From assembly GCF_024204685.1 (NCBI RefSeq), contig NZ_CP100350.1:3746501-3810500 (forward strand): a DNA stretch of 64,000 bases. The letters run 5' to 3'. Origin of the DNA: Gilvimarinus sp. DA14. Its GTDB lineage: Bacteria > Pseudomonadota > Gammaproteobacteria > Pseudomonadales > Cellvibrionaceae. Position numbers and translations under genes: made by a program. The notes under the pieces were generated by a model. The model made no database searches, had not been told where the DNA came from, and saw only the letters and a list, made by a program, of their open reading frames with translations. Numbering within the stretch: the stretch's first letter is position 1; every line of letters starts with the position of its first letter. Shown one piece after another: positions 46,290 through 54,050 of the stretch.

Positions 46290-46518
46290 AGCTTTCCTGT
46301 TGGTTGCGGCGCCTTGTGAGCGCATTGTTAGTCACGGCCCGGTGGGGCAGGTAAAAAATGGTGCGGAACTATAGCATTTTTCAGTTTTTTTTGCGCCGCT
46401 TTTACACCGTTAATCAATCGCTTAGCTACGGCCCGCCCGCAGGCGCCTCTTGCAATCCGGCCGCCTGCCCCCATCTTGCCCTGACCGCAAAACGTCACTG
46501 TTGATGAGAGAGAACCCT

Positions 46519-47607
46519 ATGGCCAGCGCCGACCTTAATGCTGTTAATGCCGCCCTCGATCTGGTTGCCGATCCAAATCTTGAGAAATCGCTGCGCGATT
46601 TGGAGGTGCCGCGTCACGCCACCGTGGAGGGGGGGCGAGTTACGGTGGAGTTGACTCTTGGCTACCCGTGCGGGCGCGACGAGACCCTGGCAAAGCGTAT
46701 TCGCGATGCGCTCATGGCGGTAGAGGGAGTGACTGAGGTGGATATTGATCTTGGTTGGAGTGTCGCGGCGCACCCGGCGGCCAATAGCGCGATGGCGGTG
46801 CCCGGCGTTAAAAATATTATTGCCGTGGCCTCCGGCAAAGGCGGTGTGGGTAAATCGACTACCGCTGCCAATATCGCGCTGGCGCTAGCGGCGGAAGGTG
46901 CGCGAGTCGGGGTTCTGGACGCCGATATTTACGGCCCCAGTCAGCCGCAAATGCTCGGGGTCGGACAGCAGCGCCCGCAGATCGTGGGCGAAGGAAAGGC
47001 TCAGCAGATGATTCCCATCGAGGCCCACGGTCTGCAGACCATATCCATGGGGTATTTAGTGACCGAGCAGACGCCGATGGTCTGGCGTGGGCCAATGGTC
47101 AGTGGTGCGTTGAAACAGCTTTTGACGCAAACCCGTTGGGATGAGGTGGACTATTTGATCATCGATATGCCCCCGGGCACCGGGGATATAGCTCTAACCT
47201 TGTCGCAAAGTGTGCCGGTTACGGGCGCCGTGGTGGTCACCACGCCGCAGGATATTGCTCTGTTGGATGCGCAAAAGGGCATCGAAATGTTTCGCAAGGT
47301 TAATGTTCCTGTGCTCGGCGTGGTGGAAAATATGGCCATTCACGTGTGCAGCGAATGCGGCCATAAAGAACATATTTTCGGTGAAGGGGGGGGCGCCCGG
47401 ATTGCCGAGGATTACCACACCCAGCTGTTGGGCGCCCTGCCTTTGTCGTTGAGTATTCGCAAGCAAGCCGACGGTGGTCAGCCCTCGGTGGCGGCAAACC
47501 CCGAAGCTGCTGAAAGCCAGGAGTACTTTGCTATTGCCCGGCGCTTGGCGGCGCGCTTGTGGCAGGCTAACAGCGAAGCCGAGCCGGTCACTGTTATTGA
47601 GACCTAG
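46519..47607 (+). CDS. mrp: Iron-sulfur carrier ATPase Mrp (ApbC)
   Basis: A 362-residue P-loop protein that carries and inserts 4Fe-4S clusters. An N-terminal MIP18-like domain (residues 1-90) is followed by the deviant Walker A ASGKGGVGKST, switch DADIYGPSQPQML, PPGTGDIAL, and the cluster cysteines CSECG. ATG 46519 is favoured over ATG 46504; both have purine-rich AGAGAG upstream. It is divergent from metG, a common pairing. Its TAG stop lies inside the target duplication of the MITE. Confidence 0.94.
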   Translation: MASADLNAVNAALDLVADPNLEKSLRDLEVPRHATVEGGRVTVELTLGYPCGRDETLAKRIRDALMAVEGVTEVDIDLGWSVAAHPAANSAMAVPGVKNIIAVASGKGGVGKSTTAANIALALAAEGARVGVLDADIYGPSQPQMLGVGQQRPQIVGEGKAQQMIPIEAHGLQTISMGYLVTEQTPMVWRGPMVSGALKQLLTQTRWDEVDYLIIDMPPGTGDIALTLSQSVPVTGAVVVTTPQDIALLDAQKGIEMFRKVNVPVLGVVENMAIHVCSECGHKEHIFGEGGGARIAEDYHTQLLGALPLSLSIRKQADGGQPSVAANPEAAESQEYFAIARRLAARLWQANSEAEPVTVIET

Positions 47608-47889
47608 GGAGCCTCTGATTAAGTCCTCATCGGCCTCTGTAAGCCCCGAAGGGCGCGGCCAAAAGGTCCATCCGCTGTTGTTGCCTACACGGATGTAGGT
47701 AAGGGCTGTGAGCAGGACGCGGAAGGCTTGCACTTCTTGCCAAGGACTATGGCCATTGCCTGCGAAGCGCGCCAAGGGCAAGGGATTGCCCGAATGCCAA
47801 TGCCGGAAGGGCAGGAGCATTTTCCGGCGAAGGAGTGAACGTTTTGACTCGCGCAGAGACCCTTGGAGACTTAATCAGAGGCTCTCTAG
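47604..47889. mobile_element. MITE-like element with 17-bp terminal inverted repeats
   Basis: Left repeat GAGCCTCTGATTAAGTC at 47609-47625 and its perfect reverse complement at 47868-47884; outside them lie G (left) and T (right) and a CTAG duplication at 47604-47607 and 47886-47889. The 278-bp body has no coding frame and no transposase. CTAG fits the YTAR target of IS5-group elements, so mobilisation in trans by such an IS is inferred. The insertion keeps the mrp stop TAG intact. Confidence 0.85.
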
Positions 47890-47891
47890 GT

Positions 47892-48776
47892 TTAGCGTTC
47901 TTTGTCATAGGGGTTGGGTACTTGGTGGTAGTTAATCAACTCCACATCGTTTGACTTGAACCACTGCTTGGTCTCGTTGGACAGCAGCATCTCGAGCTCG
48001 GTGGCGCGGTGCTGGGCCACGAGCGGCTGCATATCTTTGCTGTTCATGACAGGGTTGTTCAGGTCTATCAACGCTTGCATTTCCGGTTGGTTACGAGCGG
48101 CATGAATGACCAGAACATTAACCTTGTCGCGCTGCAGTCCATTTTGTAAATGCTCAAGAAAGCGTTTTTGTTTTTCTGCAACAGGCACATCAAACATGGT
48201 CATTACCGCCTCTCCCATCCGCATAGACATGCGCAACCGGTACTTCTCTGCCAGCTCGGTTACCACCTGCGTAAGCTCCGGCGTCGCCAAGGCCGTTCGC
48301 ATATGGTAATCCACATAGGCGATGTCCAGCCCCGAGGCCAGCGCTCGTTTGATTTGCGCCTCCAGTTCTAGGCGGACCTCGTCCAAGTTAATGTCTTGAG
48401 CTAAAAACTCAGCGGTGGACGGGTAAAAATAGCCCGTTTCGTTAATTAAGCTTGGCACCTCGGTGCGACCTGCAATGGGACCCCAGCGATAGTGGCGCCA
48501 CTCGGCGTTCAAGGTAAGGTGCACGCCGACAGAAATTTGCGGGTTTTGTTTGAGGATCTCAACGCCCTCCTGATACCAGGGGGTGGTAAACATAACTGAT
48601 GCTGCGAAAGGAATTCCTAGATCAGCGAGATCTTGCAGGCCCTGGTTGGTTGCGTGGGACATGCCGATATCGTCGACCCGTAAAATCAATTGTGCGGGGG
48701 CGGCGAGGCCGGTTTGCGCAACTGCCAGTAACCATAGGCTTAACAGCAAATGGATAAGATGACGTATTCTTAGCAT
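47892..48776 (-). CDS. Secreted ChbG/YdjC-family carbohydrate deacetylase
   Basis: A 294-residue protein with signal peptide (cleavage near GLAA, residue 25) and the YdjC/ChbG fold: metal-binding Asp pair in LRVDDIGMSHATNQG, HLTL in VGVHLTLNAEW, and DYHMRTALATPEL. ChbG deacetylates chitooligosaccharides so that regulators or enzymes can act; related HpnK and YdjC forms act on other N-acetylated sugars. Secretion differs from the cytoplasmic E. coli ChbG, so chitin fragments in the periplasm are an inferred substrate. It is divergent from the LPMO, and both carry a copy of the same operator palindrome. Confidence 0.82.
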   Translation of the reverse strand: MLRIRHLIHLLLSLWLLAVAQTGLAAPAQLILRVDDIGMSHATNQGLQDLADLGIPFAASVMFTTPWYQEGVEILKQNPQISVGVHLTLNAEWRHYRWGPIAGRTEVPSLINETGYFYPSTAEFLAQDINLDEVRLELEAQIKRALASGLDIAYVDYHMRTALATPELTQVVTELAEKYRLRMSMRMGEAVMTMFDVPVAEKQKRFLEHLQNGLQRDKVNVLVIHAARNQPEMQALIDLNNPVMNSKDMQPLVAQHRATELEMLLSNETKQWFKSNDVELINYHQVPNPYDKER

Positions 48777-48815
48777 GATTATTCTCCTATTTTCGCTCTA
48801 TCTTTGGGTCTTGGT

Positions 48816-48825
48816 ACAACGTTGT
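48816..48825. promoter_or_regulatory. Candidate LacI-family operator, deacetylase side
   Basis: The perfect palindrome ACAACGTTGT, with right flank CAA, is centred about 44 bases upstream of the deacetylase start. The central CG and arm composition fit LacI/GalR operators. Confidence 0.6.
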
Positions 48826-49225
48826 CAACTGGACTAAAAGTCTCCCTCTTTTGCGAAACTGTGAGACGGCTCACTTTTATGTCTGCTTTATGCCTTTTTA
48901 TTGTCAAAATTAATGTATTTGATTGTTAATTTTAATAAGAATAAATCTAAATTAATAAATTCTGTATAAATTCGGAAACGCTATATTGATGTAGCTTTAT
49001 GTGCCAATTGGCGCGGCTTTGGTGGGTTGAGACCCCAAAGGGGTGCGACAATGTTACGCATTGACACAAGATGGAACATAAGCATTCTGGTAGTAACTAA
49101 CATCAAAATATTGTGGGATTGTAAGAAAATAACCCTTGTGGTTTGATGTTTGGCGTCCGGCAGAGAGGGCGAGATCATAGGCGTTTGTCATCCTGTGGCT
49201 CTTTTCTGCTTGTCTCGCCACAAAT

Positions 49226-49239
49226 AGACAACGTTGTCT
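49226..49239. promoter_or_regulatory. Candidate LacI-family operator, LPMO side
   Basis: AGACAACGTTGTCT is a 14-bp perfect palindrome containing the same 10-bp core, ending 50 bases before the LPMO start. It resembles, from memory and needing a check, the GlcNAc-regulator NagR palindrome of gammaproteobacteria. Confidence 0.65.
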
Positions 49240-49289: not shown

Positions 49290-50195
49290 ATGAAAGCTCA
49301 GTGGTTCAAAACAAAAACGTTTAAGGCGGCTTTAATCGGCTGCTTCTCGATTGCAGGTATCGCGGCGACCAACACCGCGATTGCACACGGCACTATCACA
49401 TCTCCTGCAAGCCGTATCTGGAATTGTAAAGAAGAGGGGGCCGAAAGCCTGACCTCTGCGGCCTGTATTGCCGCTAAAGCCGAAAGCGGCAGCCAACAGT
49501 TTTATGATTGGAATGGCATTCGCCAAGGTAACGCTGGCGGCAATCACACCTCAGTTGTACCCGATGGCGAATTGTGCTCGGGCGGTGATCCAAACACCTT
49601 TGGTGGTATGGATTTAGCGCGTAACGATTGGGTGGCCACGCCGGTCAATGGCAATCAAACCTTTACTTGGTACAACTCTGCCGCGCACGCTACCGCTTAC
49701 TACCGCTACTATATTACCAAGCCTGGCTATGATCCTTTACAGCCACTGACTTGGGACGATCTAGAATTAATGGTTGAAACTCCGCCGGAGGCCGCTGAAT
49801 TCTATCCGTCGCACACAGTCAGCTTGCCTGCGCGCAGTGGTCGTCATGTCGTGTATGCGGTATGGCAGCGGTCTGACAGCCCGGAAGCCTTCTACGCCTG
49901 TGTTGATGTGATGTTTAACGGCGGTTCATCTTCCAGTAGCTCGTCTAGTTCATCCAGCTCGTCTTCGGTAAGTTCAAGCAGCTCTTCGAGCTCGTCCAGC
50001 TCCAGCTCTACCGATACCAACACCTGCGTGGGCGTGCCCAACTGGGATGCGGCCGATGTCTATACTCAGGGTGACCAGGTGCGTTACAACAACAGCCGCT
50101 TCGAAGCCAAATGGTGGACCCGCGGCGATGTTCCCACCGATCACGACGGCCAGTGGGAAGTGTGGATTAACCAGGGCAGCTGCTCCGGTAGCTAA
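49290..50195 (+). CDS. Chitin-type lytic polysaccharide monooxygenase (AA10) with CBM5/12
   Basis: A 301-residue secreted copper enzyme that oxidatively cuts crystalline polysaccharide. The signal peptide ends so that the mature chain starts at His33 (AIA-HGTITSPASR), the first histidine of the copper brace; His133 of NSAAHATAYY is the second. Four cysteines pair in the AA10 fold. A poly-serine linker follows (about 213-240, broken by one valine), then a CBM5/12 module with YTQGDQVRYNNSRFEAKWWT and the aromatic strip. Ser linkers of this kind are typical of Cellvibrio, Saccharophagus and Teredinibacter. Start ATG 49290 has AGAGG at 49276-49280. Chitin is the likely substrate; cellulose cannot be excluded. 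Confidence 0.93.
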   Translation: MKAQWFKTKTFKAALIGCFSIAGIAATNTAIAHGTITSPASRIWNCKEEGAESLTSAACIAAKAESGSQQFYDWNGIRQGNAGGNHTSVVPDGELCSGGDPNTFGGMDLARNDWVATPVNGNQTFTWYNSAAHATAYYRYYITKPGYDPLQPLTWDDLELMVETPPEAAEFYPSHTVSLPARSGRHVVYAVWQRSDSPEAFYACVDVMFNGGSSSSSSSSSSSSSSVSSSSSSSSSSSSSTDTNTCVGVPNWDAADVYTQGDQVRYNNSRFEAKWWTRGDVPTDHDGQWEVWINQGSCSGS

Positions 50196-51105: not shown

Positions 51106-51960
51106 ATGACAAAGCTTCCCCTTTTCTTATTCGTATCCCTATCAGGTGTTGCAACCATTGCCGGGGCTCAGAGTGTTTCAGGCAATAGCTATCAGTTCGA
51201 GCTTGGTGCAACCTACTCCACCAGTGATGCGGATTTTATTACGGAGTCTAATAACTACTCTGTGGATGGAACCTATTACTTTGCGCCTGTGCAACTAAAA
51301 GATAACCCTTACGCTGAAGCGGCGTTTATGGAGCGCGCCGGGTTTGTCAGCTTGGGCGGCGGCTACGGCGAGAATGAAACCAGGACTGCCTGTGTGAGCG
51401 CTGCAAGTGGGGCAGGCAGGACTTCATGCAGGACGCGTCAGGAAGGCTCCAGCGCGGGTGTGACAACCGGCTTTTATGTTGCGGATATTTTTTATTTTGA
51501 GGGCAGCTATTCGTATAGCGATAACGAGAATAAGTACAACGGCAGGACCTTTAGTTCGAATAATGACTACTGGTCAGCGGCTATTGGTATTGCGCCCATG
51601 GAAAATATGCTGTTGACCACGAGTTTCGCCGAAGGTAATGATTTGTTCGGCGACAACTACAACATCAGTGGTAAGTACGTTATTCCCTTTGCATCCGGAC
51701 AGGCGGTAAACCTTGAGGCAAGCTACGCCTATTACAAAGATGCACCGGACATAGCCGATGACGATGACTGGATTGTAGGCGGCGATTATTATTTTAGTCG
51801 AGCTTTTAGCGTCGGAGGTACGTTTAACTCAAGTGACAATTATACCCTGCGTTCGCGTTATTTTTTCAACCAGGCATTGAGTCTTGATGTTGAATACAGT
51901 GAGCAAAGTAGTGTTGTGGATATTGATACCTACTCTGTTGGGCTCAGTGCTCGCTTCTAG
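51106..51960 (+). CDS. Putative outer-membrane beta-barrel protein, paralogue 1
   Basis: I do not recognise a named family with certainty; it resembles the putative-porin proteins of marine gammaproteobacteria. The 284-residue product has a signal peptide (cleavage near IAGAQ, residue 22), then alternating polar/hydrophobic strands and a C-terminal phenylalanine (LSARF), the usual barrel end. NPYAEAAFMERAGFVSL is shared with the next two genes, and the exposed loops are rich in D, N and S. It contains two cysteines (in TACVS and TSCRT). ATG 51106 has AAGGAG at 51095-51100. It has its own terminator. Confidence 0.72.
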   Translation: MTKLPLFLFVSLSGVATIAGAQSVSGNSYQFELGATYSTSDADFITESNNYSVDGTYYFAPVQLKDNPYAEAAFMERAGFVSLGGGYGENETRTACVSAASGAGRTSCRTRQEGSSAGVTTGFYVADIFYFEGSYSYSDNENKYNGRTFSSNNDYWSAAIGIAPMENMLLTTSFAEGNDLFGDNYNISGKYVIPFASGQAVNLEASYAYYKDAPDIADDDDWIVGGDYYFSRAFSVGGTFNSSDNYTLRSRYFFNQALSLDVEYSEQSSVVDIDTYSVGLSARF

Positions 51961-51963
51961 CCG

Positions 51964-51991
51964 ATAAAAGCCGACGCGAGTCGGCTTTTAT
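51964..51991 (+). terminator. Terminator after barrel paralogue 1
   Basis: A perfect 12-bp stem ATAAAAGCCGAC / GTCGGCTTTTAT with loop GCGA. Confidence 0.88.
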
Positions 51992-52126
51992 TCAACATTT
52001 ATTATATTTTTAGCCAATATATCGCGCCTTGCCCAGGTGCTCGCAGGCTTGTTTCAAATCGCTAACACCTAGTCGCTAATTACTATAAGTACGTCGTCAG
52101 GAGAGTCCCTACCACATGGAGTTGTT

Positions 52127-52945
52127 ATGCAAAAACTACCTCTTGTAGTACTTCTTTCGTTCACATCCATTCCGGTGTGGGCGGATTTAAGAATGATAAA
52201 CGCCAACAGTCAGTACCAATTTGAGCTCTCTGGCTGGTACGGCGAAGACAACGATCGTTATCCCGAACCCGCGCAAACTTACGGTGTTAAAGGAACCTAT
52301 TACTTCACTCCGGTATGGCAAGGTGACCACCCCTATGCTGAAGCCGCTTTTTTAGAGCGCGCTAGCTCGGTGAGTTTAAGTGCGAGGCGTCGGGATGATT
52401 CGGACCAATACCCCTGTGGCCTGGATGCAACCGGCCTGTGTCATAACGAATATGTGGAAGATAAAATCCTGCTTACCGGCAGCTGGTATTCGGCGGGCTG
52501 GCTATTTGTCGAGACCACGTATTTTTATGAGCAAACCGATAACAGTTGGCGCGATGATCGCGAAGCGAGTTTTGATCGCAACAGTTGGAGTGCGCAGGTA
52601 GGTATTACACCGCTTGCCGGACTTCGGGTGTCAACCGGTTACTCTGAAGAAAGTGATCTGGGGGAAAACGATTGGAATGTCGAGGCTAAATACGTTGCCC
52701 CGTTATCGGATACCCAAGCGATCAATATTGAGCTTGCCTATGAGTATGCCGAGGACGATGAGTGGATGCTGGCAGGGGATTATTATTTGACGCAGGCATT
52801 CAGTATCGGCGGCGGGCTTTCGACCGACGACGATTATCTGTTGCGCTCACGGTATTTTGTGACTGATTTTATCAGTGTGGATTTCAGCTATTACGAATAC
52901 GAAGGCGGCGATGCTTATCAGGTAAGGTTGTCCACCAGGTTTTAA
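52127..52945 (+). CDS. Putative outer-membrane beta-barrel protein, paralogue 2
   Basis: A 272-residue protein with signal peptide (cleavage near VWAD, residue 19) and a body aligned by eye to paralogue 1: the N-terminal SQYQFELSGWYGED strand, HPYAEAAFLERASSVSL, the WSAQVGITPLAGL segment and the C-terminal VRLSTRF. A loop cysteine pair (YPCGLDATGLC) is conserved in position among the three paralogues, which suggests a disulfide-bonded external loop. GGAG precedes ATG 52127. Confidence 0.72.
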   Translation: MQKLPLVVLLSFTSIPVWADLRMINANSQYQFELSGWYGEDNDRYPEPAQTYGVKGTYYFTPVWQGDHPYAEAAFLERASSVSLSARRRDDSDQYPCGLDATGLCHNEYVEDKILLTGSWYSAGWLFVETTYFYEQTDNSWRDDREASFDRNSWSAQVGITPLAGLRVSTGYSEESDLGENDWNVEAKYVAPLSDTQAINIELAYEYAEDDEWMLAGDYYLTQAFSIGGGLSTDDDYLLRSRYFVTDFISVDFSYYEYEGGDAYQVRLSTRF

Positions 52946-52959
52946 CGCTAATAGACCAT

Positions 52960-52990
52960 AAAAACGCCAGCATCCGAGCTGGCTTTTTTA
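52960..52990 (+). terminator. Terminator after barrel paralogue 2
   Basis: GCCAGC / GCTGGC stem extended by A/T pairs, loop ATCCGA, followed by six T. Confidence 0.85.
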
Positions 52991-53165
52991 TGGTTGGTTT
53001 AAGTCTCGTTACTTTCGGTGGGCGTCAGGTTTTTAGTTTTTCAATTGCGATGCAACTTATGATTGTCTTATGGGTCGTATGCACGGTGGCAAACTTGCCA
53101 TTCGTACAATAAGAGTTATTTAGTAGCCATTGGATATTGGGGAGTAATCTTATCAAGGAGTTGAA

Positions 53166-54050
53166 ATGCAATCTGAAATCGTTAAAAAACCCTTAGCCCT
53201 GCTCGCGTTTATCTCTATTCCCGCAGCCGCAGATCCCTATCAGTGGGAAGTCGGAGGCGACTACCAAAGTAAGGATTATGATTCCGTCGTTGTTGGCGAT
53301 GGAGACGACTATAAACTGTGGGGCGCCTACTATTTAAGTCCAGTGACCACGGATAAAGGACCGCTCGCTGAGGCGGCGTTTTTATCGCGTGCCAGTAATA
53401 TTTCAATTGACCTGACCAACGAGCAATACAGTTCGGATTATTCTTACGAGTACCGAGTGTGTACCTCGGGATCGAACTGCATGGCTACACACTACGGACG
53501 TTCCATGGAGAATAATAAAGCAACGCTCGGATTTGAGTATTATTTGCCCGCCTCTTGGTTGTATGTCGCGGGCAGCTATCAATACTTGGACCGGAGCTAT
53601 GAGTCAAAAAGGTCTGTGGGTGGGCAGCCTGTTTTTTCGCAATCCTCCAGTACGCATGAATACTGGTCTGCTTCTGTCGGTGTGACGCCGTTAGCGGGCT
53701 GGTTGTTGGCGGCTCAGTTTGGTGAAGGCGGCGATGGCGAATTGTTCGAGGGCGATGCGGCGATTAGCAGTAAATATTTATGGCAGCTTGGTGGTGACCG
53801 AGCGCTAAATGTAGAAGGGACTTATTTTGTCGATAATGGCTACAACGACTGGCAAATTGGGGCTGATTTTTACTTCAGTAAAACTCTGAGCCTTGGTGCC
53901 AGCTATGCAGATAATCAATCTTCAGAAATTCGTTTGAAAAAGTTTGTAACTGATTCAATAGCGCTGGAGGCTAGCTATATTGAGTTTGAAGAAGATTATG
54001 GTTATCAAAGTGGCGATGGGTTTACGGTAGGTGTTAGTACGCGATTTTAA
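53166..54050 (+). CDS. Putative outer-membrane beta-barrel protein, paralogue 3
   Basis: A 294-residue member of the same set: short signal peptide (MQSEIVKKPLALLAFISIPAA), YQWEVGGDY at the mature start, GPLAEAAFLSRASNISI, YWSASVGVTPLAGW, and C-terminal VGVSTRF. The loop cysteine pair VCTSGSNC occupies the same place as in the others. Of the three it differs most in its loops. Substrate unknown; a channel or an adhesin-like barrel is possible. Confidence 0.72.
   Translation: MQSEIVKKPLALLAFISIPAAADPYQWEVGGDYQSKDYDSVVVGDGDDYKLWGAYYLSPVTTDKGPLAEAAFLSRASNISIDLTNEQYSSDYSYEYRVCTSGSNCMATHYGRSMENNKATLGFEYYLPASWLYVAGSYQYLDRSYESKRSVGGQPVFSQSSSTHEYWSASVGVTPLAGWLLAAQFGEGGDGELFEGDAAISSKYLWQLGGDRALNVEGTYFVDNGYNDWQIGADFYFSKTLSLGASYADNQSSEIRLKKFVTDSIALEASYIEFEEDYGYQSGDGFTVGVSTRF

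Follow-up and report, generated by a model that had tools for sequence, protein, structure and literature searches.

Two palindromic sites between a ydjC gene and an LPMO gene of Gilvimarinus sp. DA14 are very probably operators of a NagR-type LacI repressor that is encoded elsewhere, represses both genes and is released by GlcNAc, giving co-induction with GlcNAc uptake, GlcNAc catabolism and chitinase genes. What we observed, and set out below, is where the sites lie, which genes flank them, how they covary with a LacI-family gene and how far they are conserved. The window is the whole stretch of 64 kb that was analysed, and its relevant features are as follows.

47892..48776, minus strand: ydjC, gene for a YdjC/ChbG-like putative carbohydrate deacetylase (PF04794, E 3.4e-46)
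48814..48827, minus strand: predicted ydjC-proximal operator, read on that strand as TGACAACGTTGTAC, with the 10-mer core ACAACGTTGT at 48816-48825
49226..49239, no strand assigned: predicted LPMO-proximal operator, perfect 14-bp palindrome AGACAACGTTGTCT
49290..50195, plus strand: gene for an AA10 LPMO with C-terminal CBM5/12 (PF03067, E 1.6e-52; PF02839, E 3.2e-9)

The two sites and the proteins encoded beside them

The first-pass annotation had placed one motif at 48816-48825 and 49226-49239, the latter as a perfect 14-bp palindrome, next to divergent genes for a ChbG-like deacetylase and an LPMO. Both positions were found as claimed, and the gene identities agree with the PF04794 and PF03067/PF02839 matches; ydjC (minus strand) and the LPMO gene (plus strand) diverge, with starts 513 bp apart. 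For the LPMO, the start at 49290 was preferred to a longer ORF start at 49143, and the palindrome ends 50 bp before it. The operators lie 412 bp from each other, centre to centre, and the ydjC site has one mismatch to the 12-mer GACAACGTTGTC. The window has no further exact copy of the 10-mer. With up to one mismatch, 3 matches were found against 1.49 expected, and since 17 of 100 shuffles reach the same number, the window count on its own is unremarkable and proves little.

The ydjC product is a YdjC-family protein and, by its sequence, a putative carbohydrate deacetylase. It reaches 158.7 bits with the YdjC family domain PF04794 (cutoff 29.7), its closest solved YdjC protein is 8jqe (E 2.9e-34), and D35, D36, H86, H158 and H225 are invariant in six of six orthologues. 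From shared motifs and from aligning the protein with three solved YdjC proteins other than kpChbG, these residues were tentatively matched to D10, D11, H61, H125 and H206 of kpChbG. In kpChbG, zinc is bound by D11, H61 and H125, and catalysis has been proposed to involve D10 and H206 as a pair (PMC9402603). The chitobiose deacetylase ChbG, as described there, shares with our protein the YdjC fold family and, going by this tentative match, acidic and histidine residues in equivalent motifs. Unlike ChbG in that account, our protein starts with what looks by eye like a Sec signal peptide and scores below the NCBIfam cutoff for chitin disaccharide deacetylase (NF002559, 76.4 bits vs 227). In the ydjC of G044 (L034) one TAA is reported inside the match; translation to the first stop is near full-length, so this stop probably lies at the C-terminal end. 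In the LPMO of the window, the LPMO_10 domain PF03067 scores 179.3 bits and His33 comes first after an apparent signal peptide, again judged by eye.

Two further features of the window were seen. A MITE-like element at 47602-47891, between a gene for an Mrp/ApbC-like ATPase (ORF 46450-47607) and the 3' end of ydjC, has 38-nt inverted arms that are 84% complementary and 214 nt apart; its 17-nt end has 12 copies in the own genome when up to 2 mismatches are allowed, and four close inverted pairs account for 8 of these. At 51106-54050, three outer-membrane-protein-like ORFs stand in succession (starts 51106, 52127 and 53166). The first matches Porin_7 (PF16956, E 7.9e-14), and the other two are alike by the look of their sequences only.

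Conservation at the LPMO and ydjC genes

Comparison of orthologue upstream regions, named beforehand as a check, showed that the site is kept before both genes. For the LPMO, 30 loci were fetched from homology matches. In the genus (g1), the exact 12-mer stands 63-115 bp upstream of the match in all five orthologues (81-100%), and the one distant homologue (49%) has no site at up to one mismatch. At this same threshold the site was found in 10 of 15 fetched loci of the Cellvibrio group (g9) and in none of the other five; elsewhere it was found in one of two loci in g29/g30, 0/3 in g20 and 0/4 in g22. All four g22 loci have GACAGCGCTGTC in place of a GACAACGTTGTC-type site. Altogether 15 of the 21 LPMO regions of g1 and g9 carry the site, compared with an average of 0.03 and a maximum of 3 for 400 random palindromes, and a maximum of 1 of the 21 for 59 other palindromes of the same composition.

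Matches to ydjC were found in 8 of 144 family genomes, and six of these 8 belong to the genus. The ydjC-proximal site is present in five of the six genus orthologues, exact in G042 and G046 and with one mismatch in G044, G045 and the own genome (G000). In G043 it is absent at up to 3 mismatches, and the LPMO-side site alone remains. In G042, where the two genes converge at a distance of 1630 bp, a separate site accompanies each of them, and in G045 and G046 the ydjC-proximal site is kept where no close LPMO adjoins. Because predicted sites accompany LPMO genes in the genus, g9 and g29/g30, the link between LPMO and site spans genera; the link between ydjC and site is seen in one genus.

These data bear on a reading in which NagR does act at the LPMO site, the site near ydjC is left as a relic or has only a helper role, and the secreted YdjC protein has no part in chitin use. 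The mismatch in three of the five proximal sites, the absence in G043, the presence of ydjC in only 8 of 144 family genomes and a score of 76 against 227 bits all favour it, but the conservation of the proximal site in five of six orthologues, including G045 and G046 without an adjoining LPMO and the convergent G042, speaks against it. We consider it unlikely and prefer to regard both sites as operators.

Sites in the own genome and the candidate regulator

We scanned the own genome, a single contig of 3,956,837 bases, and took the reversed motif as control. The 12-mer occurs 16 times in 3.957 Mb vs 2 times for the control (Poisson P ~5e-10 at the control rate). The 10-mer gives a weaker result (18 vs 10), and an excess of degenerate copies is not clear, since the 14-mer with up to 2 mismatches gave 33 vs 22. 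Every one of the 18 ten-mer sites, which are spread over 14 regions, was looked up.

GlcNAc genes: nagA (inside the gene); nagP; nagK-nagX (2 sites)
TonB receptors: one receptor; two further receptors (1 and 2 sites)
Chitin-related genes: GH19-CBM5 chitinase; 971-aa CBM5 protein; LPMO; ydjC
CBM5-PKD protein with a ChiD-like (GH18-like) region, under that model's cutoff
Chemoreceptor/GH20 pair (2 sites); acs with a divergent OmpA-like gene
tpsB; small lipoprotein-like ORF (site at 2844689)

By our own assignment, 16 of the 18 fit genes of GlcNAc or chitin use or uptake, and the nagP and nagK products score 737 bits with the NagP_SO3503 model (cutoff 625) and 452 with NagK_SO3507 (cutoff 370). 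The scan for clustering had been set beforehand, and the sites stand beside nag, hexosaminidase, chitinase, TonB-receptor and acs genes rather than at random. The remaining two fit poorly and are doubtful members. The own genome has a site 160 bp before tpsB, but at up to 2 mismatches neither the 94% nor the 56% orthologue is preceded by one, and the gene was rejected as a member; the small lipoprotein-like ORF has no obvious fit to chitin use and is not counted as supported. At L108:5412-18999, a TpsA-like frame comes after tpsB; it is over 3900 codons long and truncated by the end of the fetched locus.

As a correction to the first-pass annotation, the probable regulator gene was located outside the window. 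A LacI-family gene of 338 aa lies at G000:C1:3554416-3555432, on the opposite strand and 93 bp beyond nagX of nagK-nagX (PF00356, E 5.9e-20; PF13377, E 2.7e-37), and 7 sites are found 2.4-22.5 kb from it. We searched 144 family genomes for relatives, taking the best match with at least 59% identity and counting in the truncated relatives of G033 and G046. The 51 genomes with such a relative have 2-17 sites (median 10), whereas the 93 without have 0-4 (median 0; Mann-Whitney P 2e-25, kinship ignored). Counts of the reversed control were alike in both sets (P 0.22). Contrasts within genera are consistent with this covariation in g3, g9, g17, g23, g24, g25, g27 and g28. Group g22 is unhelpful, with 2 and 2 sites in genomes with a relative and 0-4 in those without, and its member G067, with 4 sites and no relative at this threshold, counts against the operator model.

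The tracking of sites with the nag-linked gene agrees with the first-pass reading of a LacI-family operator. That annotation had also proposed one regulator for a small chitin or aminosugar regulon. Gene context, covariation and conservation support the shared regulon, but 18 sites in 14 regions do not make it small. Since neither random distribution nor absent conservation was found, the idea as a whole gains support. Autoregulation of nagR was rejected as a rule, as the site lies downstream of nagR in many loci; a site 5' of nagR is present in G008, G101, G103, Parahaliea, Seongchinamella and Pseudohalioglobus loci, and in G101 and G103 it precedes nagR-nagA-nagB.

A scan of named relatives with an eight-sequence alignment kept 80 loci, without a named Shewanella sequence among them; the nearest are Gilvimarinus, with G. 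chinensis at 98%. The recognition helix is of FK type in 58 loci and IK type in 17, and in 5 it was not read by the pattern used. The 12-mer GACAACGTTGTC occurs in the fetched flanks of 42 of the 58 FK loci and GACAGCGCTGTC in none, and GACAGCGCTGTC occurs in 13 of the 17 IK loci and GACAACGTTGTC in none. Three of the 16 FK loci without GACAACGTTGTC are short or end-cut (L133, L150, L199). The other 13, of Alteromonas/Rheinheimera type (L180-L198 group, 49-53% identity), have no GACAACGTTGTC in the fetched flanks, and therefore helix residues 16-17, as read in these sequences, are insufficient alone to set the operator. As a lead only, a third operator variant may exist: GACACCGGTGTC was seen in 4 of these 16 loci and ATCACCGGTGAT likewise in 4, both counts being uncontrolled. 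The correspondence of F vs I in the helix with A vs G in the operator offers pairs for studies of the LacI recognition code.

Another LacI-family paralogue might read the sites instead, for example an MK-helix regulator at G000:C1:1089544-1090491 (L102:3479-4600), divergent from a sugar permease gene. LacI operators resemble each other, and searching with the LacI query gave 7 matches in the own genome, of which the nag-linked protein and the MK-helix paralogue were compared. However, the MK-helix paralogue has TGACAGCGCTGTCA directly upstream, between the divergent genes; the FK and IK relatives pair with their own motifs with no crossover; and G026, which keeps only a 46% MK-type paralogue, has 0 sites. 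We therefore give a paralogue very little credence and take the nag-linked protein as the probable reader. That the two palindromes are a chance coincidence, as the window count and the 18 vs 10 ten-mers by themselves might permit, is contradicted by the 12-mer excess, gene context, covariation and conservation, and its probability is close to nil.

Proposed regulation and known NagR systems

According to our model, each recognition helix of a repressor dimer would read one GACAAC half-site, and the repressor would hold down ydjC and the LPMO gene, each through its own site. GlcNAc from chitin would enter the cell and the repressor would let go, inducing both genes along with those for GlcNAc uptake, catabolism and chitinases. 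We infer binding, repression, the GlcNAc effector and the export of both proteins. The LPMO and ydjC loci with mismatched or missing sites, and the 13 Alteromonas/Rheinheimera-type relatives that share the helix residues and lack the motif in their fetched flanks, weigh against the model. Most likely, repression would act at each operator on the gene next to it and be lifted by GlcNAc, in line with EMSA (nagK fragment with GlcNAc) and deletion-mutant results for Shewanella NagR (PMC3223726). Looping between the two operators is possible; independent control is favoured, since G043 has one site and the promoters of G042 are separated. Many operators contain TTGACA, yet overlap with promoters was rejected as a general rule: when 41 oriented sites, counting near-duplicates, were searched for a -10 hexamer at 16-18 bp, a spacing of 17 scored high yet was exceeded by one of 33, and a fixed register of site and promoter found no support in this set. 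Overlap looks plausible in single cases such as nagK, the TonB receptors, nagP and GH19.

The comparison with Shewanella oneidensis NagR covered the LacI family and the target genes. According to PMC3223726, this LacI-family protein binds nag and cbp fragments, with a nagK shift relieved by GlcNAc in EMSA, and targets are derepressed 5- to 50-fold in a nagR deletion mutant. Its targets there, nagP, nagK, nagA, an outer-membrane receptor, chemoreceptor-hex and the chitin-binding protein gene cbp (SO1072), are comparable to ours. In contrast to that list, Gilvimarinus sites also stand at GH19 and GH18-like chitinases, secreted YdjC and acs, and inside nagA. The validated target cbp (PMC3223726) gives LPMO membership of a NagR regulon at least a near precedent. 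The regulons of NagC, NagQ and NagR in Proteobacteria, in the text of PMC5343134, include a LacI-type NagR whose core is GlcNAc catabolism and whose extensions take in chitin genes, as in Gilvimarinus, and Xanthomonas NagR covers a GlcNAc kinase and TonB receptors. In the passages compared, Gilvimarinus, LPMO, YdjC and acs do not appear.

The Gilvimarinus system is very probably a further instance of the known LacI-type NagR regulon. SO1072 is presumably of AA10 type, and in that case an LPMO under NagR would already have a precedent. Within the literature covered, what is new is the Gilvimarinus instance, the membership of acs and of secreted YdjC, and the conserved intragenic site of nagA; RegPrecise tables or supplements may already list some of this. 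In the openly accessible literature covered, no report was found that ties Cellvibrio chitin to NagR, an LPMO to a LacI regulon or NagR to acetyl-CoA synthetase, nor any on these links for Gilvimarinus with chitin or Cellvibrio japonicus regulators; matches to the exact motif strings were unrelated, judged by title only. Our results suggest a probable regulator and inducer class for an LPMO and a secreted YdjC protein, and, for Gilvimarinus and some of the Cellvibrio group, would link the oxidative breakdown of chitin with the GlcNAc pathway.

Two other predicted sites would extend this regulon.

G000:C1:3231198-3231209 (L110): acs site, between acs and the divergent OmpA-like gene
G000:C1:1452120-1452131 (L103:4121-4132): nagA site, in nagA codons 36-39

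An exact site lies 87-152 bp upstream of acs in eight of eight genus genomes, which suggests that the regulon makes provision for the acetate that chitin yields. We put at even chances the wider claim that one NagR-type repressor runs a complete chitin-to-acetyl-CoA programme in Gilvimarinus, comprising LPMO, secreted YdjC, uptake, NagA and Acs, with nagA controlled by an operator roadblock at codons 36-39. In this order, the LPMO would cleave chitin oxidatively, YdjC would deacetylate outside the cytoplasm, and, after uptake, NagA would deacetylate inside the cell and Acs would recapture the acetate.

In nagA, the exact site lies 105 nt into the coding sequence in all eight genus genomes, and the 400 bp before the gene contain no site at up to 2 mismatches. 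All eight genomes agree over 19 nt around the intragenic site; no other invariant stretch of the gene is as long, the second longest measuring 11. The encoded residues are also invariant; synonymous positions are fixed too, and neighbouring codons vary. From position and conservation, the natural reading is a roadblock of the kind proposed for PurR in purB (reference cited in PMC4132739). As in that case, a LacI-family repressor would act beyond the promoter; unlike it, the nagA roadblock is proposed from site position and conservation only. If true, the operator would pin both DNA and protein sequence at codons 36-39, and nagA would be a natural example of a repressor site that apparently keeps a coding region from changing. 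A search for nagA in 83 loci, of which L121 and L200 give the same match and are probably one place, yielded 54 matches, 9 of them with a site at 38-105 bp on the upstream side of the gene.
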